Below, piece after piece: positions 250 to 47,100 of a DNA stretch of 64,000 bases. Below the pieces are notes generated by a model. The model worked only from the letters and a program-made list of their open reading frames with translations. It searched no databases and was not told the origin of the DNA. Both the position numbers and the translations under genes were made by a program. The stretch's first letter is position 1; each line of letters opens with the position of its first letter. Source of the stretch: Acidicapsa ligni (GTDB taxonomy: Bacteria > Acidobacteriota > Terriglobia > Terriglobales > Acidobacteriaceae); NCBI RefSeq assembly GCF_025685655.1, contig NZ_JAGSYG010000001.1:372001-436000 (forward strand), written 5' to 3'.

Positions 250-1119
250 CTAAACCCCCAACTCCCGCCGAGCCGTCTCCGCTACCCGCCCCAGATCCGC
301 AGTAGTCACCACCCGAATCCGATGCTCCTCCATAGTCTCGACAGCAAACCGGTACAACCCCAGCCGTTCCAGCTCCGCCCCTGCAAACCGCGAAACCGGC
401 TCCACCACCGCCGTCAATTCCAGCCCAACCCGCTCCACCCGCTCCACCCCGGCAATCAAACTCGCCGCAGAAAACGCCAGCACCTTGGCCATCTCCAAAC
501 CAGGCTCCAGACTCACCGCCTGAAACATCCGAACCTGACCACTCGCCGGACCATTTGAGCCATCGAGAACATCTATCCGATACCCGCAATCCAACCGCAG
601 CGGATCGCCCACCCGCGTATACAACGCCGCATCAATCCGCTTACGCATCAAATCCCAAACCCCGGCCCGCTCAAACTCCCCGCGCATCGCCGCCTGAATC
701 GCCGCCCGTCCACTCAGCCTCGAAACCCGCTCCCGCTTCTGCGGCTCCACATACAACCGCATCAGCTCCTCAACGCCCGCCTCGATACTCTCAGCCAGGT
801 AAGCCTTCCCGCGCGTCATCTGCACACAGTTGGAAAACGAATCCTCCAGCACATGAAACAGATTTCCCTCCGGCTCCTGCTCAAACCGCCTCCGAAGCTC
901 GCTCTCCAACCCCTCCAGCATCTCCGTATCCGTATCCGGATCGAGGCACCGCACCCGCCGCCAATCCGCAGTGAACTTCACCGCCGCCACGCGCCCCGCC
1001 AAACCATCCTTCGCGGCCTCGCGCAATATCACGCCCACATGCACAAACTCATTCCGCACCGGGTCCGGCACATACCGCAGCAGAAAGAACTCGCACTCCA
1101 GCCGTTCACTCATAAACAC
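250..1119 (-). CDS. DUF3037 family protein, partner of HipA-like kinase
   Basis: The 289-aa protein starts with the features typical of DUF3037: an aromatic-rich strand (CEFFLLRYVPDPVRNEF) followed by VHVGVILRE. The function of DUF3037 is unknown. From my knowledge of the family it is usually encoded beside a HipA-like kinase, as here, where the kinase gene ends 33 nt upstream on the same strand, so the two probably form one transcript. The start could also be the third codon (ATG at 1113). There is no signal peptide or membrane segment, so it should be cytoplasmic. A role as regulator or substrate of the kinase is inference from gene pairing only. Confidence 0.85.
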   Translation of the reverse strand: MFMSERLECEFFLLRYVPDPVRNEFVHVGVILREAAKDGLAGRVAAVKFTADWRRVRCLDPDTDTEMLEGLESELRRRFEQEPEGNLFHVLEDSFSNCVQMTRGKAYLAESIEAGVEELMRLYVEPQKRERVSRLSGRAAIQAAMRGEFERAGVWDLMRKRIDAALYTRVGDPLRLDCGYRIDVLDGSNGPASGQVRMFQAVSLEPGLEMAKVLAFSAASLIAGVERVERVGLELTAVVEPVSRFAGAELERLGLYRFAVETMEEHRIRVVTTADLGRVAETARRELGV

Positions 1120-1152: not shown

Positions 1153-1974
1153 TCAATTCACAAACCTTTTGCCCATCCCCACCCATTTCGGAAACGGCTC
1201 CCTCGCCGACCGCGCAAACGCCTCAATCAATTCCCGAATCCGTCTCTGCCGCCCAATCAGCACCTCAACCAGCGCTTCCATTGAACTAAGATCGCCCTCA
1301 TACCACTCCGGCGGAATCTCCTCCGCCGCGCGCCACACCACTGCGGCATCCATCGTCTCCAGCCGCGTCAGCCAGGGCTCAAAACTCTCCCACCCACTCA
1401 CGTCCGCATAAACCCTGTTCCGCGGATACACCCCGCGCAGCGGCAAATCCTCAAACCGCCACTCCCCCGCATGAAAGCAATATCCCTGGTCGATAAACGA
1501 AGCGCTATACCGCCGCTCCCGGGCCTTTCTCGAAAACACCGCCTGCCGCCCGTTCGCATTCCCCGTCCACTTATCCAGCGCCAGCATCCCGGCAAACTCC
1601 TCCAGGTTGCGAATCTCGCCCAACTGCTCCTCCGGCAGATAATCCACCACCTGCCCCGGCATCAACCCGCCCACATACCGAGCCCCAAACTGCAAACCCT
1701 CCCGGCACCGAACCCGCACCCGGCCCATATCCACCTCCAGTTCAGGAGTGTTCTTGATCAGCCATTTCGAAACCTCGATCACTTCCGTCTGCGGCACCGT
1801 CAACCCCGCCGCCGCAGCCAGTCGCGTCGCCAGCATCTCATTCGCCAGCACCCGAATATGCTGCGGATTGTTCTGAAACTTCACCACCCACAACTGCTCA
1901 TCCGCGCCCAGCATCAAATGCCCCTGAGCCCCGCCCCGCATCCGCCGAATCTGCTGTACCGCCTGTACCGCCAA
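1153..1974 (-). CDS. HipA-like kinase (HipA_2 family)
   Basis: The protein (273 aa from the chosen start) resembles the stand-alone HipA-like kinase family (HipA_2). It has an N-terminal QIRRMRGGAQGHLM segment, VVKFQNNPQH (ATP-binding lysine candidate), a central LDKWTGNANGRQ stretch matching the catalytic D..N region of HipA kinases, and an SFIDQGYCFH segment like the metal-binding D. I chose the TTG at 1974 because GGGAGG lies 4-5 nt upstream and family members begin near this point; an ATG-initiated ORF would add 32 atypical residues up to 2070. No HipB-type HTH antitoxin is present; DUF3037 follows instead. It probably phosphorylates a protein, but the target is unknown. Confidence 0.8.
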   Translation of the reverse strand: MAVQAVQQIRRMRGGAQGHLMLGADEQLWVVKFQNNPQHIRVLANEMLATRLAAAAGLTVPQTEVIEVSKWLIKNTPELEVDMGRVRVRCREGLQFGARYVGGLMPGQVVDYLPEEQLGEIRNLEEFAGMLALDKWTGNANGRQAVFSRKARERRYSASFIDQGYCFHAGEWRFEDLPLRGVYPRNRVYADVSGWESFEPWLTRLETMDAAVVWRAAEEIPPEWYEGDLSSMEALVEVLIGRQRRIRELIEAFARSAREPFPKWVGMGKRFVN

Positions 1975-2209
1975 GGGGCCTCCCGGCCTCTGAATCCAAT
2001 AGCCAACCATCCAATAGCCAGCCCAATAGCCAGCCAAAGAACGGACCAAAGAATCGCCCGCACAACCCAATAGCTTCCCCCATGCGATCTCAATCGCAAT
2101 CCGGAAAAGCTTCCTTCAAATTTTCAAATCTGATTCGTTAATCGGATTCTACCCGACCCACCCATAATTCTCCGCAACAAAGACCAAACCCACCCTCACC
2201 CCAGCCGCT

Positions 2210-2378: not shown

Positions 2379-3920
2379 TCACCTCCGCCGCCCCAACAAC
2401 TCCCCCCGGGCCGCCAACCCGATCGCCATAGCCATCACCCGGTCATCATGCGCCCCACTCCGCGCCCCAACATTCCCATTCGCCAACCGCACAAAACTCC
2501 GGCACTCCACCAGCAGCTTCCTGCTATGAAACAGCTCCGCAGACTCCACCAACGCCGCCGACATCCGCGCCAGCATCTGCGGCCTGCTCACCGAAGTAGT
2601 CAAAAACCCCGCCTGCCCATCCGCACCCCGATAAATCTCCCTATACCCACGGTCCTCCAACAGGCAAAGCAATCCCGAACCATGATTGTTTCGCTCCACC
2701 ACCAGCCACGCCGTGTTGTAATCCCATGCAATATTGCGCGCCGTTTCCATCAGCTCCAGGCCAGCCACATGCCCCGCATACTCCGCGCACTGCATCCCCG
2801 TTTCCATATCCAGAACCTGGATCGCCGACCAATCCCCCTCCGACCCACCGCCAGCCGGATCCACCGCCACCACATACAGCCTGCCCGCCATAGGAGGAAA
2901 CCAAATCTCCAACCTCCCGCTGTCCTTGTGAATTCCCGCTTCCGGTACAACCTCCAGCCGCCGCTCCACCGCCTCCATGTCAAAATACGGCTCCCCGCTC
3001 ACCCGAAAGCAGCTCTCCGCATCCTCCACAAACTCCTGCCGCGCCATCCCCCGCAACCCGGCCCGCATCGCCCGTCGAAACCCGATCTGCTCAAGATTCA
3101 GCGCCACATCCGGCCTGGTCATCAGCTCAAGCTCTTCCTCCGTCAGCGTCGCCTCATCCACCCCAGGCCCCCTGTATCCCGCATCCATCCACCACGGAAA
3201 AAAATGCCGCACCATCCCCGTCTCATGCGCCCGCTGCCACTCGTCATAAAAGCACCCACCAACCCCATTCGGCGTGGACTCCAGCATCACCTCAGCCCCC
3301 GGCGGCAACCCCGCCCGCAGCCCCGCCAAAGTCTCCGCCGCCGCGTCTCCCGAGCCCGCTCCCAGCCCATTCATACCCCATCGCGAAACCTCCGAACAAT
3401 GCAGATTCTGCACCGTCATCCCTCGCCCCGCATTTCGATCCGAAGCACTCTCCACTCGAAACTCCGAATCTATCTCCGGAAACACAATCTGCCGCACATT
3501 CGACCTCGCCGTCCGCAGCGCCCCCATCCGCAATCCCACCGGCAGATGCTCCACAAACCGATGCACAATCCGCAGGATCTCCTCAGCCGACTCCTGCGTA
3601 TGCGCCACCTGCAAAGTAAGCGTCCCCGGCTGCGTAATTGTCTTCAACAAAAACCGCCCCGCAACCCACGTAGTCAGCCCCATCTGCCGCGCCTTTAGAA
3701 CGATGTTCCCCGTACCGCGCCGCCGTTCAAACTCCCTCTGTACAGCATTCGCCCGCAGCGGCCGCAACTGCCCATCCTTCCCCCGAATGCGCAGCAAACT
3801 CTCCGCCAGAAACACCCCCACACTCCGCCCCCGCAACCGAGCATGAGGCTCATCCAACATCCTCCCCAAAATCTCCAACTCCCGCCGATCCCGCCCCGCA
3901 AAACCCAACCCCTCCACCAC
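2379..3920 (-). CDS. Terminase large subunit-like ATPase/nuclease
   Basis: The 513-aa protein has the two-domain layout of phage large terminases. Residues 76-84 (KARQMGLTT) form the variant Walker A loop, 172-177 (NLHCSE) fits a Walker B strand with S replacing the usual D, and 214-221 (ESTPNGVG) matches the coupling motif. A C-terminal RNase H-like nuclease domain begins at VVAVDPAGG (D353), with E409 (VERNNHG) and H491-D492-D493 (HDDR). All key nuclease acids appear present, so it looks intact. No portal, capsid or small-terminase gene is recognisable nearby, so it is either a prophage relic or a domesticated enzyme. The next gene upstream encodes a giant tail-fibre-like secreted protein. 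Confidence 0.85.
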   Translation of the reverse strand: MVEGLGFAGRDRRELEILGRMLDEPHARLRGRSVGVFLAESLLRIRGKDGQLRPLRANAVQREFERRRGTGNIVLKARQMGLTTWVAGRFLLKTITQPGTLTLQVAHTQESAEEILRIVHRFVEHLPVGLRMGALRTARSNVRQIVFPEIDSEFRVESASDRNAGRGMTVQNLHCSEVSRWGMNGLGAGSGDAAAETLAGLRAGLPPGAEVMLESTPNGVGGCFYDEWQRAHETGMVRHFFPWWMDAGYRGPGVDEATLTEEELELMTRPDVALNLEQIGFRRAMRAGLRGMARQEFVEDAESCFRVSGEPYFDMEAVERRLEVVPEAGIHKDSGRLEIWFPPMAGRLYVVAVDPAGGGSEGDWSAIQVLDMETGMQCAEYAGHVAGLELMETARNIAWDYNTAWLVVERNNHGSGLLCLLEDRGYREIYRGADGQAGFLTTSVSRPQMLARMSAALVESAELFHSRKLLVECRSFVRLANGNVGARSGAHDDRVMAMAIGLAARGELLGRRR

Positions 3921-4089: not shown

Positions 4090-7000
4090 TCAATTCCCCC
4101 CACACCAATACCGCACCGAATAAGCAGTAGAAGCCGCCAGCGCCACATTCCCCGTAAGCGTCACAGCCGCAGCACTCTCACTCCATCCCACCGAAGCAAC
4201 CACCCCACTCCCCGCCAACTGCACGCTCACCACGCAATTCGCCTGGCTAGTCCGCGTATTCGGAAAACTAAACGTCCCCAGACTTCCCGTCGTCGTAGAA
4301 GCCCCCGTAGTTAACGTCGCCGCACCACTCACCCCATCGCAAACATGACTCGCCGTACAGGCAAACGAAGCACCGCTCCCCGCCGCTGCCCCCGCAGCAA
4401 AGCTCATCGTCCCCGTCCCGCTCATCGTCTTCCCATCGATAAATCCAGCCGTCGTAACATTGCCGCTGCCCGTAACAATCGCCACCTGCAACGGAGTAGC
4501 CCCGCCCGAGAACACCGCCAACCCACCCGTTCCCGAACCAGCCTCGCGGTTCACCGACACATACCCCGTTCCATTCGCATTCAGCATCGTCTCGCCACTC
4601 TGATAAGCCTTGAAATGATCCGTCCCATCAATCGCCGAATTCAACGACCAGTTATTTCCCGCATCCTTCACCATGTACCACTGCGAAGCACCGTTCCAAT
4701 CCTTGTAGATAAACGATTCCTTCTGAGCCGCACTCAGCCCCGCCCACAGCGTCGAATCGATCTCCGCATCCGCCCCGTTCTTCACCGTCGCCGAGCCCTT
4801 CAACGTCGATGCTCCGCCCACCTGCAGGCTCCCCGTAAAGTTCGCATCGCCCGCGCCATCGATAGTCGCCACCGTAGTTTCCGTCGCACCGCCAGACCCA
4901 ATCACCAATCCGCCCGATCCCGCATTCGTCGAACCATTCAGCACCACGGCGCCCGTACCCGTCGCATTCAGAACAGTCTGATTATTCGTGCCTCCCGCAC
5001 TCGTAATCTCCGCTACCGCATTCGCCGATGTGGTCTGGTTCGTCCCCGTGAAAGTCAGCGTCGGCTGCGACGTATATCCACTCCCATTCGCAGTCATCGA
5101 CACGCTCAATACCGTGTTGCCTCCGGCACAGCTCGGCGAAGCAGTCGTCGCCATAACAGCCGTCGCCGCAGCACCCGATCCACCGCCGCCCGCAAAGCCG
5201 ATAGCCGGTGGAGTCGAAGACGTATAACACCCGCCATTGTTCACAATCACGTTGGTCACCGTATTCGCCACAGTGCTCAGATACTGCCCGATCGAAAGCC
5301 GATTGACACTGCTCAAAACATCCGTGATGTTATAAAACTGCTCCCCCGAACTCCCATCCCCCAACCCCACCGTCCACCGGTATCCATAATCCGTCTGGTA
5401 TTCATTCAACAACCCGCGCTCGTTTCCATTTCCTGTTCCCACGCGCACATGATTCGTCACAGTCGAATCCATCTGGCTCGCATACCAGTCGCCCTTCACC
5501 CCATTGAACGTTCGATGAAATGCATCCAGAAAACTGTTTCGCGAACCGTTATCCGTCAACGCCCCCGTAAACATCGTCCCACCCGTAATCCACGAGTTAT
5601 ACGTACTGCCTGCATCCGCGATAACCTGGCTCGAAGAGTTCTCATTGCGCACCCCGACAAACGTGTTGTTCTGCGCATTCGCTCCCAGGTGCAATGCCGT
5701 AGCGCAACCCTCAACATCCCCGCCAGTGAACGTATTGCCATCTCCCTGCGCCAGGTTGATTCCATACGTCCCCGCAATCGGATTCCCGCCACTCGTCGGG
5801 CAATCGATATGCAATCGGATAAACGTACTCGCATTCATCCAATCCGTAGTCGCCGCATTCGCCGCCTGGTGCCCAATGCCATTCACCGCCGTGTGCCAGC
5901 CATTGAATGCCAGGTCATAAAAACTTCCGCCCGAGTAATTCCCCGTACCATCCACCGTCATACCCGTCTGGTTCGAATTCCCCAGTAAATACAGGCTCTC
6001 CAGGTCCATCTCCTGCACCCTGTAAGCCACCAGCGCCTGCGTCGCCGCATTCGTCGAATCAGTCGTGTTGATCACCACATCATCGAGATGAAAGCCCATC
6101 GTGTCCGCCGCATACGTCGGATCGCCCACCTGCACCGCAGCACCGGCACCCGAATACAACAGCACCGTCCCACCCTGGCTTCCACTCGCCCCCGAAGCAC
6201 CACGCAAACCGCAGCCCTTCAGCGTCACATTGCGCACCCCGGCCGGCACCACAATCTGCGCCGAAGTCGAGATCGTCGCACACGGCAGCAACACCGTGGC
6301 ATTCGCCACATTCAACGTCAGTGTCGAAGCCATCGTCACCGTCCCGGTAAAATTCCGCGCATCGCAAATCCCGCCATACACCGAACTCAACCCAGCCAGG
6401 CAAGCCGATAACTTACTCCCGATATCCGAACCCGCAAACTGGTCCGCTTGGTAAGCCCCGCCCACCGCCAACGCCGTCAGTTGACCTCCGAAGTGACTCA
6501 CCGCCGCATTCAAACTCGCCCCACCCAGGTTCGCCAACGCCTGCTGCGCCGTAGTCGCACCCGTGCCTCCGTTTGCAATCCCAACCGAGCCCGTAGTGAT
6601 GTTCGCCGCATTCAACCCAGTTAAGTTTCCGCCATAAAAATTCGGCGCACTCTGCCACACCGCCGAACTCGTACTCGACCCCGTTCCCGTCTCCATCAAC
6701 ACCGCCGGAGTAGTCGACAAATTTCCCGCCAGCCGTCCAGGATTTCCGTTCCCATCGCCCATCACCAGGTCGCCCTGCGTAGTCGTCAACGGATTCGTCG
6801 CCACCGGCGCACCGCCACTCACCGCCGGAGTAGCCGAAGCCGCACCGCCCGCCAGCAGAAACGCATAGTACCTGCCCGCCGGATAGTTCTGCGCCAGCGT
6901 CGAAGGATTGCAAACCGTCAGCGCCAACGTATTCGCCGCCGTCACACTGCCGCTCATCTGTAACTGCCCCGCCGATGCCGAAGGCCGCACAAACAGCACC

Positions 7001-10000
7001 CCATCCGTAGCCACCGCACCCGGCACCGTAATCCCCGCCACCGTCGCGCATGTTTCGCCGCTCACCGTACCCGCCGCAATCGCAAACGCCTGCTCTGAAA
7101 AATCTGTAACCGGCAGCGTCGTATCGGTCCCGCTGATCAGCCCTGGCCGCACCCGCAACCCCGGCATCTGCACCGCTGTCTGGCCCGTAAATCCGGCGTA
7201 CCCATCGTTCTCCATCGTCAGATAACGCGGCATTGTCCCACCGCTCGCATAAGCCTGCTCCACAGACCGCATGCACCACTCATCCACAAAACCGGAGTTC
7301 ACACCCTTCAGACACAGCTCACCCGAATCCGTATTCGTCACCCCCGGCGGGTACGAAGTGTTGGACCATCCCAGGATCAGCCTGCCCGTAGCCACCGGCT
7401 GCACCCGCGGAGCCACCGGTGTATCCGCCGAGCTTTGTAGATTCGTCAGCTCTAAACGAAAATCCTCCAACTGCTGCGCCGCGCTCACCTGTTGCGGCTC
7501 CGCAATCGACTCCAGAACAGCTCCGCTCGCACCGATATTCCTTGCCGAAATATTCTGAAACCCACTCAGCAAAATCGCCCCGGGCAATTGGTTATTCACG
7601 CTGTCATACGGGCTCGGGCAACTCGTCGAACCATAGTTCCCGTTTGCCGCCGCGCCGTTGCAATACCCCACATCCTCCAGCCCCAGCCCATCGATCACCC
7701 AACCACCCGCAGCCGTCGCCACAATCGGATAATTCTGCGTCTCCTTCACATTCGCGTTGTGAATCGTCACCCCAAGCACCGGCCGTCCATAACGCGAATA
7801 AGCGGCAAACATCACGTGATAGATACCCCGCCACATGGAGTCTGTGATCACCCCAAAACCCGCCTGGTTCTGATCGGTCAGCCTTGCCTGGTTGTCACTC
7901 ACATGAAAGAAATACGTATTGAACCACGTGTCCAAAGCATTCTGCACCGTCTGCGCCTGGCTCACCGATGCCCAGTTCGCGCCGTAAAACACCATCCCAT
8001 CCAGCGCCGTTGAATCACCCAGGTTCTCCGCATTTAAAAACACTTCTCCACTCGTGCTCGTCGACGGAGCACGCGATCCCCACCAGCCGCCCACAATGAT
8101 GCCCGCTTCGCTATTCTGAATAAACGTGTCCTGAAAGGTGTCGTACTGCGACGATCCCGCCAGCACCGCAATCCCCACCCCGGCCATGTTCACTCGCTGC
8201 CAGCGCCAGTAAGCTCCCGCCTGTGTCGCCGCGCCGATAAACGCCTTGTTGATACTCACATCAAAAAGATTCCAACTCGCGATAGGACTGTCCGAACCAA
8301 ACACCGCAAAATAAGGCGCGTTCATCGTGTAAGTCGCAGCCGTCGCAGCCGCCGGCGTATAACTCGAAACAATCGTCGCCCCATTGCCATAAATCGTCAG
8401 CGGAAACGATTGCTCACTCTGCACTCGAATCGCGTATCCGAGATATCCCGGCGTCTCCGGCGCAATGTTTGTACACGCCACTCCTCCACACGTATCCGTA
8501 CTCGGCGCCGTTCCGTCATCCCACGCCGTCTGCATATAACCCGTGATGGTTCCAATGAAATAAGTCTTCCCCTGCGTCAGCGTGACCGATCCCGCACGCG
8601 TCCCATTCTGCGTCGCATAACTGATCGCGTTATTGAAGCACTGCGTATCATCCGTCACTCCATCGGCAGCGCAGCCAAAATCATCCACCCGCACTTCGGC
8701 TGAATAACTCGTAACTCCCCGCCTCTGATCCAGCACAGGAATCGGCACAGCCACAGCAGGCGGCGCAGCCACGGAGATATTCGGACAACTCGTATATCCC
8801 GACCCTCCGTTCGTCACCGTGTAACTCGCCACCTGTCCGCCACTCACATTCGCAGTAACAGCCAGCCCCGCTCCACCACCGCCCGTAATCGACAACACAG
8901 GAGCACTCGAATATCCCTGTCCCAACTGCCCCGGCATCACCGCCGTCACCTTGCCGCCCTGCGTCGCGTCATACACACACAGCGCCGTAGCATTCATCGC
9001 AGCATTCTGCGCATACATCCCCACCGTCCCCGACGGAATCAGCGCCGAACTCGCCGTAGCCACACAACTCCCCACCGAAGAAGACAAAGCGCAATCCGTA
9101 GTCCCATCGATCACCGGAGCAGTCAACGCACCCGTCAGCGTTCCACCCGCAATCGGCAACGCACCCGTTCCACTCCCACCGCCCGAACCAATTGCACTCG
9201 AAATCTGCGTATCCACATACGCCTTGTTCGTAGCCTGGTTCGCCGCAGTCGGAGCATTCGCAATCAGCACCTGTTGAAACGCCGGCACAAAAGCCATCCA
9301 CGCCGTCTCAACATTCGTCACAACACCCGGCGATAACCCAACAGCATTGACAGCATTCCCCTGCGTAGCCGCATCGCAACCCGTGTTCCCCGTCACCGTG
9401 TTGTAAGGGATGCGAAACACCTGCCAACTCGTAGTCAGGCTCACCATCTGGTCAGCGAAAACGCAGCCTGCCGCGCCACTCCCCGCCAGCTTCAACTCCT
9501 GCGTAGTCGCAACATCCGCCTTGGCCGCGACCTCCCACGTTCCCGTTCCGGCCGGAAATCCCTTCCCCAAAACCAGCGCTCCCGCAACCCCACGAAGCGC
9601 CCAAACACCCGACGTATCCCACGCCCCACCCAACGCCTTCACATACGATCCAGTCACCGGAGCCGCAGGATCCTTGCCAAACGAACTCCCCACCGCAACC
9701 GACTCACCTCCAGCCGAATACAAATCCTCCGCCGAAAAGAAAAGATCGTTCAAGCTAGGAAACGCCTGGTTCGCCGCACCTCCACCCAGCAACGCAAAAT
9801 CCGCCGAAACCACCTGCGGAGTCGCCCGTGAAGCCTCTAACCCAGCCTGTCCAAATCCCGAAGCACTGGACTGCACAAACACATTCCCCAGTCCCCCATC
9901 GGACAACCCGGCAGCGGCAATCCCCAGCCCATTGAACCTGTTCTGCGAACCCAGGTAACTCCCCGAATCACCCACCACCAGCGCCGGATAAGCCGTAGTC

Positions 10001-12195
10001 GAAGCCGCCAGCGTTCCACCGCCACCCAGCGCCATCCCCTGCGTGCGCGAACCCTCTGCGTTCCAGATCGTGTATCCGCCGCTTCCCTTCAGCAGATTCC
10101 CACCCAGAAACGTCATTCCATTTCCCGCAATCAAATTCACCGGCCTGGCAGGCACAGCAATTCCCGAAACACCCACCATCGCCGTAGTCGTACTCGAACA
10201 ACCCACCCCGCCTGCACTCACCGTCACAGCTCCCAGCGAACCATCCGCATTCACCGCCGCCACAGCCGCTGCCGTGCATCCCCCGGAAAACTGAATCGGC
10301 ACCGCAGCCCCATAAGCCTCAAATCCCAACCCATGCTCCGGCCCCACCGAAACCGACGTAATCGCCCCACCCGTAGCGTGAACCACCAACGCAGGCTGCA
10401 CCGCCACCCACTCCGGCAGCACCGCAGCATTCCGCACCGTCCAGCCAGCCTGCACCCCCATGCCCGCACCCGCAAAATCCAGCACCAGCCCGGTAGCCGC
10501 CTCGCCCGTAGCCGCCGAACTCCACGCACTCACCACCACATCGTCCAGCACATCGTTCGACCCGGCAGCCACTGCAAAACCATGCGTCGCCTGAACCGTT
10601 ACGTTCTGCCAGCGATTCGCATCCGCAACCAATCCATTCGGCACAGCCACCGGCAACCCCGGCAAAGCAATCCCCGTTCCCACCCCGCGAATGTCGATAT
10701 TCCTGAAGTCAGAAGCAGTCGGCCACTGCGCCAGGTACAGCCCGCACGTATGCGTCGAATGCGCTCCCGCATACAACGCCAGCGGATCCGTCCCCGTCGC
10801 CGTCGCCGCAATCGCCACATTCTCAATCTCACCAACGCGCAACCCATTCCCACCCGCGCCCGTAACGGCAGGCATGGCAATCGCACAGTTGCCAATCGAC
10901 CACCCCGCCCCTGTCCCTGCAACGCCAGTCAACCCATTCCCACCCGGCGAAAAAACCGACCCTACCTCCATCGGCCGATTCACTCCACAACTACCCGCCG
11001 CAGCCCGTCCCTGCGCCGGGGAGCACGAAACATCCACGCTCCCATCCACATAGATCGTGAAGTCATGTAGCCGTGTATTCGCCAGCAGATTCGTAGCATC
11101 CGCAGCCGTAGCCAACACATCCTGTCCTGGAAAACCCATCAGCCCCGAAACCTGCCGCCCCTGTCCGCCAATCGACTCCCCATGCCACACCAGTTGCTGC
11201 GTCTTGCAAACCCCGGCAGGCAGCGTCAGCGCGACCCCAAGTCCTGCCGGACCATGCCCCGCCGCACTCTGCGCAAACGCAAAATTGATCGCCGCCTGCA
11301 ACGCCGCCGTATCATCCGTAACCCCATCGCAGACCGCCCCAAACTCCTTCACACTCCGCTCATGCTGCTGAGCGCCCGTAGCCCGAAGATCCTCCACCCG
11401 AATCCCCGCAGCATTCGTAAATGTATCCGTCCCCGTATAAGTCGAAGGCACCATAACCGAGCCCCCGGCAGCAGCAGCAGCCGTCTGCGTAGCCTGCAAC
11501 GTAGCCTGCGAAGTACCCGTCTCCGGTGAGAAAACCCCATTCACCGACTCCGCATTCAACGGCCCCGCAATCACCCCACCACCCGACGAAAGCCCCCCTG
11601 CAAACACCTGGTCCACATAGTGTTTGTCCGCAGCCATCAACGGCGTCGTAGGATCAGCCGCCAAAATCAGCGGTCCCGTAAGCGTCCCGCCATCGGTCGT
11701 CAACAGGCTTCCCTGCAACTGCGCCACAGCCTGGTCCACATACGACTTGCTCACTGTCTGCACCGCCTGCGCCGCTGGCATCAACTGCGCCCGCACCTGC
11801 GCAATCGAAGCCGAAGCCGCACCCGAAGCCGTCGCTGGCACCACCCAATACTCCGTGTTCACCGTCCCATCCGCCAGGTGATACACCGCCGTGTAATACA
11901 GCCCCGCCGGACTCGCTCCCAGATTCGGCGCAAGGTTCAAACTAGCAAACCCATCCGCCCCAATCTGAACAGCAACATTGCCCGCCACCACAGCCTGATT
12001 CGCCGCCGTAGTAAAGGCTGGCCAGCTCACCAGCAACGTGCCTGAACTAGGCACACCCGCAGCGTTATAGACCGTCCCCTGCACGGTCGTCGTGGTTACC
12101 GTCTGCGCCCAGCCGACCACAGTCAACAGGCAAACCATCGCGCAAAATGAAACCCCTCTACCCAAACGCAACCACGTCGAATTCGTGCTCTTCAT
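4090..12195 (-). CDS. Giant secreted tail-fibre-like protein with pectate-lyase-fold domains
   Basis: This 2701-aa protein begins with a signal peptide (cleavage after about WAQ, residue 31). Residues 150-200 contain phage tail-fibre-type units (TGPLILAADP, ADKHYVDQ) that recur further on as TNKAYVD and GGTLTGALTAP; a GGTGATTAQQALANLGG unit, typical of tail fibres, lies near residue 1885. Two stretches (near 283-300 and 1170-1185) carry the GxxxDGxTDDT signature that opens pectate-lyase-3 (right-handed beta-helix) domains, and a third helix-like region starts near 1925. The ATG at 12195 was chosen because GGAAGG lies 9 nt upstream; the open frame continues 72 codons through repeat copy 3 but that stretch is low complexity. 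Enzyme activity is unproven; glycan binding or cleavage is inferred from the fold. Confidence 0.8.
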   Translation of the reverse strand: MKSTNSTWLRLGRGVSFCAMVCLLTVVGWAQTVTTTTVQGTVYNAAGVPSSGTLLVSWPAFTTAANQAVVAGNVAVQIGADGFASLNLAPNLGASPAGLYYTAVYHLADGTVNTEYWVVPATASGAASASIAQVRAQLMPAAQAVQTVSKSYVDQAVAQLQGSLLTTDGGTLTGPLILAADPTTPLMAADKHYVDQVFAGGLSSGGGVIAGPLNAESVNGVFSPETGTSQATLQATQTAAAAAGGSVMVPSTYTGTDTFTNAAGIRVEDLRATGAQQHERSVKEFGAVCDGVTDDTAALQAAINFAFAQSAAGHGPAGLGVALTLPAGVCKTQQLVWHGESIGGQGRQVSGLMGFPGQDVLATAADATNLLANTRLHDFTIYVDGSVDVSCSPAQGRAAAGSCGVNRPMEVGSVFSPGGNGLTGVAGTGAGWSIGNCAIAMPAVTGAGGNGLRVGEIENVAIAATATGTDPLALYAGAHSTHTCGLYLAQWPTASDFRNIDIRGVGTGIALPGLPVAVPNGLVADANRWQNVTVQATHGFAVAAGSNDVLDDVVVSAWSSAATGEAATGLVLDFAGAGMGVQAGWTVRNAAVLPEWVAVQPALVVHATGGAITSVSVGPEHGLGFEAYGAAVPIQFSGGCTAAAVAAVNADGSLGAVTVSAGGVGCSSTTTAMVGVSGIAVPARPVNLIAGNGMTFLGGNLLKGSGGYTIWNAEGSRTQGMALGGGGTLAASTTAYPALVVGDSGSYLGSQNRFNGLGIAAAGLSDGGLGNVFVQSSASGFGQAGLEASRATPQVVSADFALLGGGAANQAFPSLNDLFFSAEDLYSAGGESVAVGSSFGKDPAAPVTGSYVKALGGAWDTSGVWALRGVAGALVLGKGFPAGTGTWEVAAKADVATTQELKLAGSGAAGCVFADQMVSLTTSWQVFRIPYNTVTGNTGCDAATQGNAVNAVGLSPGVVTNVETAWMAFVPAFQQVLIANAPTAANQATNKAYVDTQISSAIGSGGGSGTGALPIAGGTLTGALTAPVIDGTTDCALSSSVGSCVATASSALIPSGTVGMYAQNAAMNATALCVYDATQGGKVTAVMPGQLGQGYSSAPVLSITGGGGAGLAVTANVSGGQVASYTVTNGGSGYTSCPNISVAAPPAVAVPIPVLDQRRGVTSYSAEVRVDDFGCAADGVTDDTQCFNNAISYATQNGTRAGSVTLTQGKTYFIGTITGYMQTAWDDGTAPSTDTCGGVACTNIAPETPGYLGYAIRVQSEQSFPLTIYGNGATIVSSYTPAAATAATYTMNAPYFAVFGSDSPIASWNLFDVSINKAFIGAATQAGAYWRWQRVNMAGVGIAVLAGSSQYDTFQDTFIQNSEAGIIVGGWWGSRAPSTSTSGEVFLNAENLGDSTALDGMVFYGANWASVSQAQTVQNALDTWFNTYFFHVSDNQARLTDQNQAGFGVITDSMWRGIYHVMFAAYSRYGRPVLGVTIHNANVKETQNYPIVATAAGGWVIDGLGLEDVGYCNGAAANGNYGSTSCPSPYDSVNNQLPGAILLSGFQNISARNIGASGAVLESIAEPQQVSAAQQLEDFRLELTNLQSSADTPVAPRVQPVATGRLILGWSNTSYPPGVTNTDSGELCLKGVNSGFVDEWCMRSVEQAYASGGTMPRYLTMENDGYAGFTGQTAVQMPGLRVRPGLISGTDTTLPVTDFSEQAFAIAAGTVSGETCATVAGITVPGAVATDGVLFVRPSASAGQLQMSGSVTAANTLALTVCNPSTLAQNYPAGRYYAFLLAGGAASATPAVSGGAPVATNPLTTTQGDLVMGDGNGNPGRLAGNLSTTPAVLMETGTGSSTSSAVWQSAPNFYGGNLTGLNAANITTGSVGIANGGTGATTAQQALANLGGASLNAAVSHFGGQLTALAVGGAYQADQFAGSDIGSKLSACLAGLSSVYGGICDARNFTGTVTMASTLTLNVANATVLLPCATISTSAQIVVPAGVRNVTLKGCGLRGASGASGSQGGTVLLYSGAGAAVQVGDPTYAADTMGFHLDDVVINTTDSTNAATQALVAYRVQEMDLESLYLLGNSNQTGMTVDGTGNYSGGSFYDLAFNGWHTAVNGIGHQAANAATTDWMNASTFIRLHIDCPTSGGNPIAGTYGINLAQGDGNTFTGGDVEGCATALHLGANAQNNTFVGVRNENSSSQVIADAGSTYNSWITGGTMFTGALTDNGSRNSFLDAFHRTFNGVKGDWYASQMDSTVTNHVRVGTGNGNERGLLNEYQTDYGYRWTVGLGDGSSGEQFYNITDVLSSVNRLSIGQYLSTVANTVTNVIVNNGGCYTSSTPPAIGFAGGGGSGAAATAVMATTASPSCAGGNTVLSVSMTANGSGYTSQPTLTFTGTNQTTSANAVAEITSAGGTNNQTVLNATGTGAVVLNGSTNAGSGGLVIGSGGATETTVATIDGAGDANFTGSLQVGGASTLKGSATVKNGADAEIDSTLWAGLSAAQKESFIYKDWNGASQWYMVKDAGNNWSLNSAIDGTDHFKAYQSGETMLNANGTGYVSVNREAGSGTGGLAVFSGGATPLQVAIVTGSGNVTTAGFIDGKTMSGTGTMSFAAGAAAGSGASFACTASHVCDGVSGAATLTTGASTTTGSLGTFSFPNTRTSQANCVVSVQLAGSGVVASVGWSESAAAVTLTGNVALAASTAYSVRYWCGGN

Positions 12196-12507
12196 AATCA
12201 GCATCCTTCCCAAAATCAAAACGAGCCGCGGCGTAGCCGCGCAAAAATTTTTTCCATACGGAGAGGTGCCCCAAGTCTCGCACCCAACCCCCCAGACACA
12301 AAATCTCCCCACCCAAGCCCCAGCAGTCGCCTTTGCCCTTGCTTCTGCAGTTGCAGCTGCCCTTGCCTTTGCCCTTGCCCTTGCCCTTGCCCTTGCTTTT
12401 CTAGCTGTCATTCCCGAAGGGAATCTGCTGCTAGCTGTTGCCCTTGCCTTTGCCCTTCAGCCCCCACCAAAAAAACCGCGAGCAAAGCCGAAGCCCGCCC
12501 GCGGTCC
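12196..12507. promoter_or_regulatory. Leader of the giant secreted protein gene
   Basis: The gap holds repeat copy 3 and, at 12227-12241, a perfect CGCGGC-GTA-GCCGCG hairpin lying in the 5' leader of the leftward giant gene, next to a run of A then T (12243-12253). I cannot place a promoter with confidence. Confidence 0.35.
12323..12460 (+). repeat. Hexamer array + palindromic core, copy 3
   Basis: At least eleven NNTTGC hexamers in a continuous period-6 phase run into the core palindrome at 12410-12424, followed by CTGCTGCTAGC and further hexamers. It lies after the 3' end of the small acidic-protein gene. Confidence 0.9.
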
Positions 12508-18369: not shown

Positions 18370-19290
18370 TCAATTCCGGCTAGGATATATCCCCAAAACA
18401 CAAATCGAGTACTGCATCCCCTGCGGCGCAAAAGGCCTCAAATCCGGCAACCCAAACGTAGTGATCCCATCCCCACCAAACCGCGTCCCCATGATAGAAA
18501 ACACAGCAACGTTTTGATTGATGGGCAACAACCTGCCATCCGCTGGCAGTGCCCCCTCCCCATAAGAGTTCACCGACAGAATGGCATCCCCCAGCATGCA
18601 TGTAGCGTTATAAGTAAAGTCTTCATTGGAATAACCGTTCGTCCCCAGCGCACCCGAAAGCGCCGTGATGTTAGCCGGAATAGGATTCACCGAGCCAGGA
18701 AGCCCCCGCGCCCCAACCGGCCCGGTAGGCCCAGTGGCACCCGTAGCGCCAGCCACTCCCTTAGCTCCCTCCGGACCGGTCAATCCCTGCAATCCACGCG
18801 GTCCGGCAGGCCCCGTCAAACCAGTTACCCCACGAGGTCCCACCGGTCCAGAGGCGCCAGGAAGTCCACGTACTCCAGCAGGCCCAGCAACACCCGTAAG
18901 CCCTCTAGGCCCCGTTGCCCCTGTCAAACCGGTAACTCCACGTGGCCCAACCGGACCGGTAGCACCAGGAAGTCCCCGCACTCCAACTGGTCCCGCCGGT
19001 CCGGCTGGCCCGACTGCTCCAGTTGCCCCAGTCAATCCCACTAACCCAATAGGTCCAGCAGGCCCCACGGGACCAGTGATATTCCACTCATCCAATATCT
19101 CCGTAGCCGTATTACAAGCAGTCGTAGCCGTAACAATTCGCGGAATAGCCGTCATCATATTCACGCAGGCGATAACCGTATTCGTGGTGGTGTCAGCAGG
19201 TACAACCGCCGTCTTCGATTGCGAAGAAGCGATCGTCCCAACAGAGAGAAACAACGCAAAAGAGAGAGCAAATGGTTTATCCAAGCGCAT
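18370..19290 (-). CDS. Secreted collagen-like protein with C-terminal tail-collar-like domain
   Basis: The 306-aa protein starts with a signal peptide (MRLDKPFALSFALFLSVG...), then a Thr/Val-rich segment to about residue 65, then about 45 Gly-X-Y collagen triplets (GPVGPAGPIGLVGLTG onward, to about residue 205). The C-terminal 80 residues (CMLGDAILSVN...LPADGRLLPI...FGLPDLRPFAPQGMQY) resemble the phage tail-collar / microcystin-dependent-protein domain. Bacterial collagen-like proteins form triple helices on cell or phage surfaces, so a trimeric secreted or surface fibre is the likely product. It is a single gene; its start lies 86 nt from the photolyase stop. Confidence 0.85.
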   Translation of the reverse strand: MRLDKPFALSFALFLSVGTIASSQSKTAVVPADTTTNTVIACVNMMTAIPRIVTATTACNTATEILDEWNITGPVGPAGPIGLVGLTGATGAVGPAGPAGPVGVRGLPGATGPVGPRGVTGLTGATGPRGLTGVAGPAGVRGLPGASGPVGPRGVTGLTGPAGPRGLQGLTGPEGAKGVAGATGATGPTGPVGARGLPGSVNPIPANITALSGALGTNGYSNEDFTYNATCMLGDAILSVNSYGEGALPADGRLLPINQNVAVFSIMGTRFGGDGITTFGLPDLRPFAPQGMQYSICVLGIYPSRN

Positions 19291-20863: not shown

Positions 20864-21889
20864 TTAACTTGCAGCCGGAGGCGTATCGACGACATCAACA
20901 AACGAATACCCACTGCCCAGCGCCGAATTCGCAAATGTAAGCGTCCCCGGACGATACTGCGCATCCTGCGTACACCGTATCTGCACACTATTCGAGAGAT
21001 CAGAATTTGCAGCGATACTGCGCGGCCTCGGAAATCCCCAAAGCACCGACCAGGATTCATGCTTGATATCCAACGCATGCTTCGCATTCATCGGCGAATA
21101 TTGCGCCACAGCCGTCTGATCCAACTGCAACCCCAGCGCCATCGCCTTGCCCATCATCCAACTCAGCGTGATATCCGACAGCCCCGTCTCCGGATACCCG
21201 CCGCCCACATCGCAATGCACGCCTGTAAACCAGACCTGCTCCAGCGTCTGCCCCGGTGCCGGAGTCGTCGTCCAAAGCGTCGGCGGAAACTCCACACGCC
21301 GTTCATCGATAGCCAGCGCCTGGTACGCATGCACCACTTTCGAATTCAATGAAGTATCCAGGAACTGAAACTGGAGAGGATCGACGCCACCCACGATTGC
21401 AGGAATCCCCAACGATCCAACCGTGTCCCACACGCCCACCATCAGGATCGTCGCTGCTTCCACCGCATACTTCGCCTGCAACCCGGCTAGAATAGTAGCC
21501 CGATCATTCTTGTTGCGATACGCATTGAAAGCAGCTTCAAGAAATGCATCATCAAACTGTGCCGTAGGTAATCCCACTGCCGCAATCATGCCCGCCAGGC
21601 TGCGCGCCGTATAAGCACCGCGGCTGAACCCGAAGATATAAATCTGGTCCCCCGACTCATACACATGCGCTATCTTCGAATATCCATCTTTGATCTTTTG
21701 AAACAGCCCAATACCAAACGCTCCACCTGCCAGCTTTTCAATCGGATTCCCATCCGAACCAACACCATCGTCGTAATAAGGAACCTGTGTCGCCGTTGTC
21801 AGGCAAGCCTTGAACAACTTGTAAGGATTCGTATTGTTGGCACTCGAATCCCACGTACCATCCGCGCAATACACAATATTCTTTGCCAT
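20864..21889 (-). CDS. DUF2235 alpha/beta hydrolase (Tle1-like phospholipase family)
   Basis: The 341-aa protein begins with VYCADGTWDSSANNTNPYKL, typical of DUF2235, and has the nucleophile elbow GFSRGAYTARS (S89), VGVWDTVGSLG (acid region) and GVHCDVGGGYPETGLSD (histidine region). DUF2235 is the domain of Tle1 phospholipase effectors of type VI secretion, but many members are stand-alone. No VgrG, PAAR or immunity gene is visible here, so an effector role is not supported; intracellular lipase/esterase is a safer reading. There is no signal peptide. Its leftward transcript ends at the terminator near 20811-20847. Confidence 0.85.
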   Translation of the reverse strand: MAKNIVYCADGTWDSSANNTNPYKLFKACLTTATQVPYYDDGVGSDGNPIEKLAGGAFGIGLFQKIKDGYSKIAHVYESGDQIYIFGFSRGAYTARSLAGMIAAVGLPTAQFDDAFLEAAFNAYRNKNDRATILAGLQAKYAVEAATILMVGVWDTVGSLGIPAIVGGVDPLQFQFLDTSLNSKVVHAYQALAIDERRVEFPPTLWTTTPAPGQTLEQVWFTGVHCDVGGGYPETGLSDITLSWMMGKAMALGLQLDQTAVAQYSPMNAKHALDIKHESWSVLWGFPRPRSIAANSDLSNSVQIRCTQDAQYRPGTLTFANSALGSGYSFVDVVDTPPAAS

Positions 21890-23663: not shown

Positions 23664-24371
23664 TCACCACAAATTCAAAACCCGCACCACCCGCCCCACC
23701 AAAAAATCCCCAGGAGCCTCAGCCACCCCCACCGCAATCACCTGCAAAGAAAACTCCGCCCGATGCGCCCTCAATACCACGCGTCCCGCTTGAAACTCCG
23801 CATACCGCACCACCAGCAGACTCCCGCTCCGCGCCGCATATAAATTCACTTCCCCGTCCCTGTAAGCATGAAATGAGTTGTAGTGGCGATCCACCACCAC
23901 CAGCGCCTCCGCACGTACCACAGGCTCCATCGGCACCGCCTCCGCTGCAGAGATCCGCACCGCCACAAATCTCTCCCACTGCAAACGAGCCTTTGAACAT
24001 CGCGCCCGCAAAGCCCCCAGCTCCGCCATAGGAAACGGCATCATCTGCTGCACATTCGACGCACGAATATACGGGTCATCCATCGCCACCCCATGCCCCA
24101 CCAGAGGCACGTATCCCATCTCGACAAACTGCGATTTCAGCATCCCGCTCTGCCGTGTCACCGGCAACAGATCCGCCACTTCCATCCGCAACGCATCCAG
24201 AACTTTGTCCAGAGCCTTCAAAGAAAGCCCGCGCTGCTGATGCAGAAAATTTGAAATGTGCGGCTGACCCAGTCCCGTCTTTCGCGCCAGCAACGACACG
24301 CTCATCGTCCCGCGCTCAACCCTGCGCCGCAGTTCGAGTCGAACCCGCTCTTGCAGTTGACTAAAGTTCAT
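23664..24371 (-). CDS. XRE-type regulator with S24-like C-terminal domain
   Basis: The 235-aa protein has an N-terminal HTH (about residues 10-65: SVSLLARKTGLGQPHISNFL, then GLSLKALDKVLDALRM) and a C-terminal beta-rich domain resembling the S24/LexA-CI fold (EALVVVDRHYNSFHAYRDGE, LLVVRYAEF, GRVVRVL). I see no clear Ser-Lys self-cleavage pair, so it may only dimerise. This is a phage-repressor-like layout, but no phage genes adjoin it. Its ATG is preceded by more than 500 nt without a gene, which may contain its operator. Confidence 0.8.
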   Translation of the reverse strand: MNFSQLQERVRLELRRRVERGTMSVSLLARKTGLGQPHISNFLHQQRGLSLKALDKVLDALRMEVADLLPVTRQSGMLKSQFVEMGYVPLVGHGVAMDDPYIRASNVQQMMPFPMAELGALRARCSKARLQWERFVAVRISAAEAVPMEPVVRAEALVVVDRHYNSFHAYRDGEVNLYAARSGSLLVVRYAEFQAGRVVLRAHRAEFSLQVIAVGVAEAPGDFLVGRVVRVLNLW

Positions 24372-44169: not shown

Positions 44170-47100
44170 CTAATTAACCACCAGTGTCACCATAAAAGTA
44201 TGTGTAACACCCGAAGCACTGGCCGTAATCGTAACTGGATAAGTCCCCGACGGCGTTCCGCCGGTAGGTATTTTCTTTCCTCCACCCGGTCCGCCCTGTC
44301 CGCCCGAACTCGTGCAACTGCTCATCATGCCAACCGCTCCAGCCGCTGCCGCCAACAGCACCACTCCCAATAGCAAGCTCCTTCGTTTACGCCACGCCCA
44401 CGGCATGGCCAGTAACCCGCACAGCAAAACTCCAGCTGCAGGCCATGCGCTCTCCCGTGACACATTTCGCGACGCATTTGAAGATGTAGGCGCACCCGTA
44501 GATATCCCCACCGAGACATTCCCGTTAACATTCTCCGGCAGTCCTTGCAGCGTCATCGGATTCAAGCTGCACGTCGCATTCGCTGGCAACGTCCCGCACT
44601 GAAATGTAAAGCTTCCCGGCGCTCCCAGCGGAGTTACAGACAATGTGTAGTTAGCCGTCTGCCCCTGCACCACCGACGCCGACGCGCTTCCCACCACCCC
44701 CATTTGAAAGTCGAACCCAGTCCCACCCAGCGTCAGCATCGCAGTATTCGTCCCGTTCGTACTGGAGATAGCCAGGTTTCCTGTAAGTTGCCCCACCGCC
44801 GTCGGAGTAAACGTCACATTGACCGTGCAACTGCCGCCAGCCGCCAGGGTCACCCCGCATGTACTTCCACTTAGTCCAAACCCCGCCTGCATCCCCGCCG
44901 CATCAACCGCCAGCTTCAGCCCGGTAAGCCCCGTAACTGTCCCGGTATTGGTTAACGTCACCTGGATTGGCTGAGCCGCCTGCCCGATCCCCGTAGCTCC
45001 AATTCCAGTAGCCCCAGCCCCAGTCGCCCCGAACAGCACCAGCGCCTCCGGCATCGTCTGAATCCCCGGTGGCAACGCCGCCGTCCCATTCAGCGCAACC
45101 GTTGCCGGAGCCGTTCCACTCTCCGCCGACACCGCCGAACTAACAGTGAGCGCCCCCGTAATTGCACCGCCCGCCACCGGAGCAAACGCCACTCCCACCG
45201 CGCAGTTAGCTCCCGCCAACAGGGTCGTCGTGCAGGTCGTCCTAGCAGCATCCACTTCAAATCCCGGCGTCGCATACAAGCTCAGGTCTGGAACCGTCGT
45301 CTGCCCGCTATTCGTCACCGTCACCGTCTGCGTCGCACTCACCTGCCCCAGCAACGTCGTAGCAAACGTCAGTTGAACCGGAGTCACCGTCAGCACCGCC
45401 GGAGTCAGCCCCGTTCCCGCCAGCGTAGCCACAGCGCTCGCAGTAGTACTTGAAACCGTCAAAGACGCCTGCCGCCCGCCCGCTCCCGTCGGCGAAAAAT
45501 ACACCCGCACCGAACACGCAGCTCCCACCTCCAGCGTTCCCGTGCACGTCGCCGTGCCCATGTGAAAGTCCGCCGCCGCCGTTCCTGAAATCCCCAGCGT
45601 CAGCCCGGTCAACTCCTGCCCACCCGTATTGCTGATCGTCACCGTCTGCGAAAGAGTCGTCAGACCCACCGTTGTCGCCACAAAGTTCACCGTCTGCGGA
45701 GACACCGCCACCGCTGGCGGCACCACTCCCGTCCCCGTCACCGGTACAGTCGCCGCCGCCACCCCCAGGCTGGTAGTCGATATCGTCACCATCCCGCTCG
45801 CATCCCCACCCGCCGTCGGCACAAACGTCACCGGAACCGAACAACTGGCCCCCGCATCCAGGCTCTCTCCACAATTTCCCGGCCCCAGCGCGAACGGCTC
45901 CGTTCCGGCTCCAGTTCCAGCCCCACTTCCAGCCCCGGTACCCGCTCCAGTGAAACCACCCGCCACGCCAAAGTGCAGCCCCGTCAACGCCTCCGCTCCA
46001 CCATTCGTCACCGTCAACTGCAACGCCGCACTGCTCATTCCCACAGCCACCGAACCAAACAGCAGTTGCGTCGGAGCAGCCGCCAGCTTCGCCGACGACA
46101 AGCCCGTCCCCGTCAGCCCCACCACCACCGGCACAAACCCCGCGTTGGTCGAAGATATCGTCACCGATCCAATCAGCGTTCCATCCTGTAGCGGCGCAAA
46201 ACTCACCTCCATGCTGCAACTTGCGCCACTCAAAAGCTCCACCCCGCAACTGTTCTGCGTCAGGTTGTAATTCCCCGCGATCACATATTGCAGTCCCTCA
46301 AGCGCGATCAGTCCCACATTCGTCACCGTCACCATCTGCGCGGAACTCGTCTGTCCCTCCACTATCTCGCCAAAGCTGACCACTGCCGGATTGATCTCCA
46401 GCTCTCCCGCCGGAATCCCCGTCCCCATGATTCCCACCGTCCCCGGCATCACCCCCGCCGAAGTCGTATTCACCGTAAGCACCCCCGCCTGGTTCCCGCT
46501 GGTCGAGGGAGTAAAGGTCACCCCCGTCGTGCAACTCGCCCCCGCCGCCAGAGTATCCCCGCACATGTTCCCGCTCAATCCGAACTCCCCGGTCACGGTT
46601 CCAGTAACACTCACCTTCACCCCCGCCAGGTCCGCCTCGCCCACATTCGTCACCGTCGCCGTCTGCGCAGCGGAGGTATCTCCCAGCACCTCGCTCCCAA
46701 ACGTCATCTGCGTCGGCATCAATTGAATCAGCCCCACAGCCACGCCGGTTCCATCCAGCGGCACCGTCAGCGAAGCAACCGCAATATTCGTCACCGTCGC
46801 CATCAGCGTTCCCGGCGCATCCCCGCTCGCCGTCGGATCGAAACTCACCCCCACCGTGCATGAAGTCACCGCCGTCAGCTTCGTTCCGCACGTCGTCAGC
46901 GACGGGACAAATTGATATGGCCCGGCCAGCGCCAACGCCAGCCCATTCGCCATCTGCCGCCCCAGGTTGCTTATTGAGACCGTAAGCGGCGCGCTCGCCG
47001 TTCCCTCCGGAGTCTTCGGAAAACTCAAACTCATCGGATTTGCCTGCAACAGGATCAGCGGCGTTCCCGTTCCCATCAGGCTCACCGTCGTCGGCGACTG

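Follow-up and report, generated by a model that had tools for sequence, protein, structure and literature searches.

A signal-bearing, phage-type fibre at the head of a chromosomal particle block: a candidate gene transfer agent of Acidobacteriaceae

The window analysed here comprises 64,000 nucleotides of Acidicapsa ligni (assembly GCF_025685655.1, contig NZ_JAGSYG010000001.1, positions 372,001 to 436,000) and encodes a giant fibre- or tailspike-like protein, to which the genome holds a single match in a genome search. We consider it probable, though far from settled, that this protein is the receptor-binding or polysaccharide-cutting fibre of a domesticated phage-derived particle, a candidate gene transfer agent (GTA) of the Acidobacteriaceae. 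Domestication and vertical descent of the block that would encode the particle are well supported, and candidate DNA transfer by the particle is plausible. Since the fibre opens a conserved block and its mature N-terminus has a virion-attachment fold, the simplest reading of its role is that of a particle fibre first and of a free surface or secreted protein second.

A conserved block of head and packaging genes

The fibre gene opens a block of about 22.5 kb and 15 open reading frames (ORFs), which runs beyond the left edge of the window (Table 1); past its last, 79-aa ORF lie purE- and purK-like host genes (named by eye). Phage-derived head and packaging genes sit here on the chromosome, including a portal (PF04860, 6e-56), a head-tail connector (phrog_442, 8.5e-16) and a terminase large subunit (terL) whose residues K76, R78, G81, T84, E177 and D354 are present in all 62 proteins compared (repeat loci of the same genome and the distant L200 and L201 were dropped). 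The predicted capsid model aligns to HK97-fold shells, encapsulins as well as phage capsids (highest Z 14.2; best Foldseek E 1.1e-3). Sequence searches of the capsid, 782-aa, 328-aa and fibre proteins against PDB chains returned nothing significant (two of these searches gave two chance-level matches each, E 0.16-0.98), and two capsid proteins found no match among the INPHARED phages.

Gene order was assessed across 59 chromosomal terminase loci, from which repeat loci per genome, L200, L201 and IMG/VR loci had been dropped. The fibre gene lies upstream of terL on the same strand in 49 of the 52 loci with at least 7 kb of upstream sequence, within 700 bp in 32 and with more intervening sequence in 17. 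In three more distant relatives (L161:7113-12292, L163:7228-12391, L169:7081-12158) the interval between fibre and terL contains one or two more ORFs whose starts look signal-like by eye, those of L161 with beta-helix and immunoglobulin (Ig)-like matches. The order hipA-DUF3037-portal is kept in 42 of 47 loci with at least 5 kb downstream, the exceptions being L142, L164, L190, L192 and L194. The full set through the 79-aa gene, with purE-purK adjoining, occurs in the window genome, L206, L207, L208 and L211; in the L142 genome (G008) the remainder of the block is on another contig, and L158, L159, L281, L347 and L348 are rearranged members. Three genomes of another family (f7: G217, G199 and G344) carry most of the same genes. 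The G217 fibre is at the far end of its block, the stretches fetched from G199 and G344 are without a fibre, the G199 terL is inverted and apart, and G217 and G199 have fusA-like and adjacent genes in common, as judged by eye. In G217 a 420-aa ORF, lying between a 328-aa-type and a baseplate-like gene, could be a short tape measure, judging by place and length alone, and has no match in PHROGs.

A capsid gene was detected in 222 of 398 Acidobacteriaceae species genomes, in 166 of the 256 good ones and in 52 of 79 genera, with one match in all but five of the positive genomes, which show two. At the class level it was found in 61 of 299 genomes, 58 of them in the family (G313 with a fragment only) and three outside, and at the phylum level in 25 of 297, all in the family. 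A further 39 capsid proteins are 71-96% identical to that of the window genome. Comparison of terL plus portal with rpoB in 29 genomes (G056 was excluded because its rpoB is cut by a contig end) gave a Mantel r of 0.78, reached by none of 2000 permutations, and 13 of 26 shared splits (shuffled mean 0.26, maximum 4). Ten of the 15 strong terL-portal splits recur in the rpoB tree, and no strong rpoB split contradicts any of the 15; conversely, 9 of 11 strong rpoB splits are recovered in the terL-portal tree. The block is, by these measures, inherited vertically with its host.

The structural genes are under purifying selection. Ratios of nonsynonymous to synonymous substitution (dN/dS) for terL, portal, protease-like, capsid and connector genes range from 0.006 to 0.37 over seven pairs, where present, with values of 0.085-0.33 for terL (seven pairs), 0.07-0.19 for portal and 0.006, 0.023 and 0.25 for capsid (three pairs); ORFs were read from stop to stop, which adds some non-coding codons and may inflate these values. 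For the fibre, the ratio is 0.09-0.26 in the N-terminal anchor region described below and 0.25-0.73 in the remainder, saturated in one pair, while one pair yielded 0.53 for DUF3037, measured over a truncated stretch of 56 codons.

A probably exported fibre with a predicted virion-anchor domain

A first-pass annotation, made from the letters of the window, had described the 2701-aa protein as carrying a signal peptide, tail-fibre motifs and two pectate-lyase-fold openings, and all of these features were recovered on the minus strand. The translation contains ADKHYVDQ, GGTGATTAQQ, TGPLILAADP, GAVCDGVTDDT and GCAADGVTDDT, and PF12708 (pectate-lyase/RHGA) is matched in two stretches (34.1 bits, cut-off 27), which points to the opening of a right-handed beta-helix of the PF12708 type. 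The endosialidase N-terminal family PF12218 is a weak match (20.2 bits, below the cut-off of 26.3). In PHROGs the fibre matches families of tail, connector and other virion proteins; among phage records its second helix finds only weak matches, to Klebsiella phage proteins (six records), and the fibre has no significant sequence match among PDB chains.

An upstream start lacking the signal peptide had been named as grounds for doubt. The frame does stay open as far as a possible start at 12411, which would give 2773 aa. However, the additional 72 aa are read-through of a repeat array, beginning within a dispersed genomic repeat, and GGAAGG, which resembles a ribosome-binding site, lies 9 nt ahead of the ATG at 12195, so that the 2701-aa start is the better one. 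As a separate observation, the 21-base repeat GATTCCCTTCGGGAATGACAG, which has an inner palindrome, occurs in 203 genome copies at no more than one mismatch (control 0), among them copies at window positions 2293, 4021, 12405, 18294 and others, several of which lie between block genes; it is also found in L203. The copies run in one orientation over long distances, those listed being on the minus strand at C1 344-452 kb and on the plus strand at 459-608 kb. Swapping of fibre genes via flanking repeat copies was considered and is unsupported, because the 203 copies lie throughout the genome.

Export is suggested by homologues as well as by the window protein. A signal-like stretch was found in 45 of 50 fibres, among them that of the window, versus 14 of 379 N-termini of ten other block proteins, by a home-made test rather than SignalP. 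Four of the five misses (L198, L149, L153 and L172) are signal-peptide-like by eye and the fifth, L165, is an ORF cut by the end of its stretch. Duplicate loci from one genome were removed before this test, as were the distant terminases L200 and L201, and control proteins without a BLAST match, or with an alignment starting past residue 60, were left out. By eye, the conserved domain is preceded by a positively charged beginning, a hydrophobic segment and an AxA-type site, with letters that vary freely between genera, and a signal is likewise visible in the f7 fibre of G217, in a second tailspike-like protein of that genome and in fibres of genomes without capsid and terminase matches. These patterns make a conserved Sec-type signal on the fibre well supported at the level of sequence.

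Behind the signal lies a predicted transthyretin-like domain; in a model of the fragment that follows the signal, residues 1-100 have a block pLDDT (predicted local distance difference test) of 87-98. In structural alignment with VIA-align the domain comes closest to five chains from phage fibres, necks and tail tips: A-1(L) with Z 11.5 and 10.3, Bxb1 with Z 10.4 (2.7 A over 83 residues), Ur-lambda with Z 9.3 and XM1 with Z 9.1; the best Foldseek E is 1.7e-4. Carboxypeptidase D domains reach Z 8.7, and the anchor fold alone is therefore no proof of function. The window fibre thus shares its N-terminal fold with the fibre or neck-fibre proteins of these phages but differs in its start: the matched stretch in the solved phage chains begins at residue 1-2 of the entries' own numbering, so these have no signal peptide, whereas the window fibre has one ahead of the domain. 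Tail fibres are normally built and mounted in the cytoplasm.

Under the explanation we favour, HK97-type heads would form in a minority of cells and be filled in the cytoplasm, with the terminase packing DNA that is probably the host's. The fibre would be exported via Sec, its signal cut near A30/Q31, and would trimerise in the periplasm or outside the cell. Its anchor domain could mount it on particles at cell lysis, and/or free fibre could act on exopolysaccharide so that particles reach recipients, while the variable distal part would set the polysaccharide or strain recognised. A fuller proposal, which we consider rather less likely than not, is that of an independent GTA lineage whose Sec-exported spike meets the capsid outside the cytoplasm or clears exopolysaccharide ahead of it, and in which HipA and DUF3037 may tie production to arrest or death of the producer.

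Points of weakness and competing explanations

Several groups of observations weigh against a domesticated transfer particle. The first concerns the particle itself, whose existence, packaging and transfer are predicted here from genes. Mean pLDDT is only 59.8 for the capsid model, in which residues 161-270 are best, and family searches gave no match above cut-off for the capsid, protease-like and coiled-coil proteins or for five tail-side ORFs; the protease-like name rests on place and on an invariant His and Ser (49 of 49). No lysis gene was identified besides the 79-aa ORF, which is holin-like by eye only. The gap between the 328-aa and 782-aa ORFs is 152 bp in the window genome, too small for a tape-measure gene, and the two adjoin in the other family loci checked too; a tail, if there is any, would therefore be unusual.

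The absence of a visible tape measure from the family block, together with a toxin-type pair of HipA and DUF3037 within it, would suit a phage-derived particle used for killing, toxin delivery or as a storage shell. We consider such a non-transfer use very improbable: terminase and portal are under selection and the terminase catalytic residues are intact, and DNA packing therefore makes most sense of them. The pair itself (PF20613, 34 bits against a cut-off of 27; PF11236, 66.4 against 22.6) follows the HipAD/PDC-M66 gene order, a HipA-like kinase and then DUF3037. This arrangement is common to the defence systems HipAD, DS-6 and PDC-M66, but in the block the pair lies between terminase and portal and its PADLOC scores for PDC-M66 are weak (1.6e-7 and 4e-6). 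In the defence type, HipA is a toxin which DUF3037 neutralises, according to the relevant passages of two papers (PMC12548924, PMC13092281). Immune-like LypABC drives GTA lysis in Caulobacter, as described in part of another (PMC13236601), and by analogy one might guess that HipA and DUF3037 drive particle lysis in the same way. Like the block, the pair follows the descent of its host (Mantel r 0.79 and 0.85, 28 genomes). However, it occurs without particle genes in all 16 regions fetched (L349-L364) from the 34 genomes of other families of the class with a DUF3037 match, which argues against the non-transfer use as well and weakens the notion of HipA/DUF3037 as a dedicated particle part. The pair is widespread in the class, mostly as a single chromosomal copy, and is also found at L344:16193-18128.

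A second group of observations concerns descent. No capsid match was obtained in 176 of the 398 family genomes, and half of the terL-portal splits, and 5 of the 15 strong ones, are absent from the rpoB tree. The phage-like contigs L316 and L317 have a capsid of 48-49% identity along with several homologues of head genes, and four large IMG/VR contigs (L312-L315, 74-214 kb) carry a 66-69% identical capsid with almost no other block genes and apparently represent a distinct group of phages that shares this capsid type. The capsid-negative genomes and the related phage-like contigs would also fit a single family of prophages, ordinary or decaying, that repeatedly inserts at the same site, and such elements are classed as prophages or proviruses in passages of two papers (Cluster 153, PMC5900883; probably also group (ii), PMC11924767). 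We regard this explanation as distinctly unlikely. No PF00589 tyrosine integrase lies within about 80 kb of the block in any of 10 genomes, in a search that did not cover serine recombinases, transposases or replication genes. The portal is single-copy in 9 of 10 genomes; in G211 a second portal stands 3.6 kb from an integrase and shows the look of a true prophage. The block itself does not display the pattern of a temperate prophage, in which an integrase accompanies the element and the insertion site varies. It occupies one fixed site in the genomes compared, and capsid-less genomes bear marks at the same place: of 16 sampled, 11 had a purK match, and all seven of those sites that were fetched are scarred or empty beside purE-purK, the scars being a 79-aa-type gene, the helix-turn-helix (HTH) gene, hipA-DUF3037 or a partial block. 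In G313 the purE-purK site contains a cut block with a truncated capsid gene. The single capsid match in almost every positive genome, the agreement of terL and portal with rpoB and the purifying selection on structural genes also speak against prophages. The capsid profile retrieved 32 IMG/VR loci, of which 26 are pieces of the block.

The third group of observations concerns the fibre. Its export is at odds with cytoplasmic assembly of a particle, and some genomes without capsid and terminase matches keep it. The first-pass annotation had read the gene as a tail-fibre-like module reused as a surface or secreted glycan-binding protein. The fibre-like character and the conserved signal agree with that, as do the few genomes without a capsid or terminase match that have a signal-bearing fibre, but the gene is no stray module: a terminase-portal-capsid-connector-tail block begins with it as the first large gene, and the mature N-terminus of its product has a virion-attachment fold. 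Location inside a complete prophage had been thought to speak against reuse; the gene does lie inside a head-and-packaging block, which is not a complete prophage. A fibre that had left the particle, as a Sec-secreted host adhesin or exopolysaccharide depolymerase merely still placed beside particle genes, would account for the conserved signal-like stretch. It would also account for G028, G015, G069 and G078, which hold signal-bearing fibre ORFs of 628-1464 aa but no terL match. G028 and G015 have no capsid match, G069 and G078 are not among the capsid positives, and near these fibres no particle genes were found except a weak 79-aa-type match in G069. The second signal-bearing tailspike-like protein in an f7 genome points the same way. 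These lone fibres favour at least partial independence of the fibre. We nevertheless judge full release from the particle unlikely, as the fibre is the upstream neighbour of terL in nearly all loci and its virion-anchor fold is conserved, and as two further genomes of this kind (G014 and G049) hold short remnants that are decaying, as expected of a gene useless without a particle.

Table 1. Features of the fibre gene, the particle block and its surroundings (window positions unless a contig range is given).
Feature	Position	Strand	Details or basis
Giant fibre/tailspike-like protein	4090..12195	minus	2701 aa, ATG at 12195, stop at 4090
Predicted Sec signal peptide, residues 1-30	12106..12195	minus	MKSTNSTWLRLGRGVSFCAMVCLLTVVGWA, then Q; sequence, cleavage site inferred
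Transthyretin-like virion-anchor domain, residues about 35-138	11782..12093	minus	predicted model and structural alignment
Tail-fibre motifs (YVDQAV...GGTLTGPLILAADPTTPLMAADKHYVDQ)	11596..11748	minus	sequence
First beta-helix opening, residues 280-308	11272..11358	minus	PF12708
Second beta-helix opening / weak PF12218 cap, residues 1177-1202	8590..8667	minus	tailspike PHROG at residues 1162-1217
C-terminal domain, residues about 2575-2700	4096..4473	minus	conserved in near relatives, tblastn 53-59% in L141, L187, L202
Small ORF upstream of fibre, 147 aa	12508..12951	minus	weak homologues in the same place in part of the relatives
Terminase large subunit	2379..3920	minus	phrog_2 9.9e-25, catalytic residues conserved
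HipA-like kinase	1153..2070	minus	PF20613; PADLOC PDC-M66A
DUF3037 protein	250..1119	minus	PF11236; PADLOC PDC-M66B
Portal gene, first codons	1..39	minus	remainder left of window
Block left of window	contig 362447-372039		portal, protease-like, coiled-coil, capsid, connector, ORFs of 150, 166, 328, 782 and 79 aa
Cro/C1-type HTH protein	23664..24371	minus	homologues adjoin the particle block in many relatives

Family searches gave no name for the 147-aa ORF upstream of the fibre, and the Cro/C1-type HTH protein is, by its position in relatives, a possible regulator of the block. Elsewhere in the window, all on the minus strand, a second protein with a signal-like start (18373-19290) combines collagen-like repeats with a Phage Tail Collar domain (MRLDKPFALSFALFLSVGTIASSQ...), 20867-21889 encodes a Tle1-like phospholipase catalytic domain (PF09994, 1.1e-72), and a 2452-aa ORF (44170-51528) consists of Ig-like domains of the Cep192/HYDIN/ASH type, families best known from eukaryotic cilia and centrosomes.

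Related systems and implications

The closest parallels are the RcGTA-type agents of Alphaproteobacteria, in which a compact chromosomal head-tail cluster is inherited with the host, according to the passages that describe it (PMC10883770). Their TspA, described in part of a further paper as a detachable beta-helix tailspike with a PF12218-like cap that degrades biofilm (PMC13420450), is by analogy the nearest working counterpart of the acidobacterial fibre. The two systems share a host-inherited chromosomal cluster and a beta-helix tailspike, but they belong to different phyla, and the acidobacterial capsid is without a family or INPHARED match; RcGTA proteins were compared by description only. 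The tspA gene lies apart from the RcGTA cluster, whereas the acidobacterial fibre sits inside the block and bears a signal peptide. The window N-domain is closest to phage fibre domains, and the TspA N-terminal beta-sandwich, which resembles a carbohydrate-binding module, was likewise compared by description. For the acidobacterial block, DNA transfer is a candidate function.

The element has been encountered before under another name. Prophage Cluster 153 of Eichorst et al. 2018 includes, in the relevant part of that paper, Terracidiphilus gabretensis LAIJ01000009 700000-740000 (PMC5900883), and locus L198, which carries the block, is LAIJ01000009 708958-730439, within this cluster member. 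The group (ii) proviruses of Terriglobales, as outlined in passages of PMC11924767, are probably the same element, judging by host range and the Koribacter reference and not by sequence. Both were read as temperate phages, and the passages concerned do not mention vertical descent, a fixed site, selection or an exported fibre. GTAs in general are named as a possible fate of vertically inherited cryptic phages in a passage on phage-like Sphagnum contigs, one of which (two ORFs) comes from an Acidobacteriaceae genome (PMC12142844). Searches of an open-access library, judged mostly by their listings, showed no treatment of the block as a GTA.

Acidobacteria are common in soil and genetically hard to study. 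If the explanation favoured here is true, a native gene transfer particle in more than half of the sampled species genomes of Acidobacteriaceae, one of the large families of the phylum, as counted by the capsid gene, would bear on gene flow in soil and could serve as a genetic tool for these bacteria. Some elements counted as soil viruses, such as the block fragments among the IMG/VR loci, would then be organs of their hosts, and a spike with an export signal departs from the rule of cytoplasmic fibre assembly and mounting.

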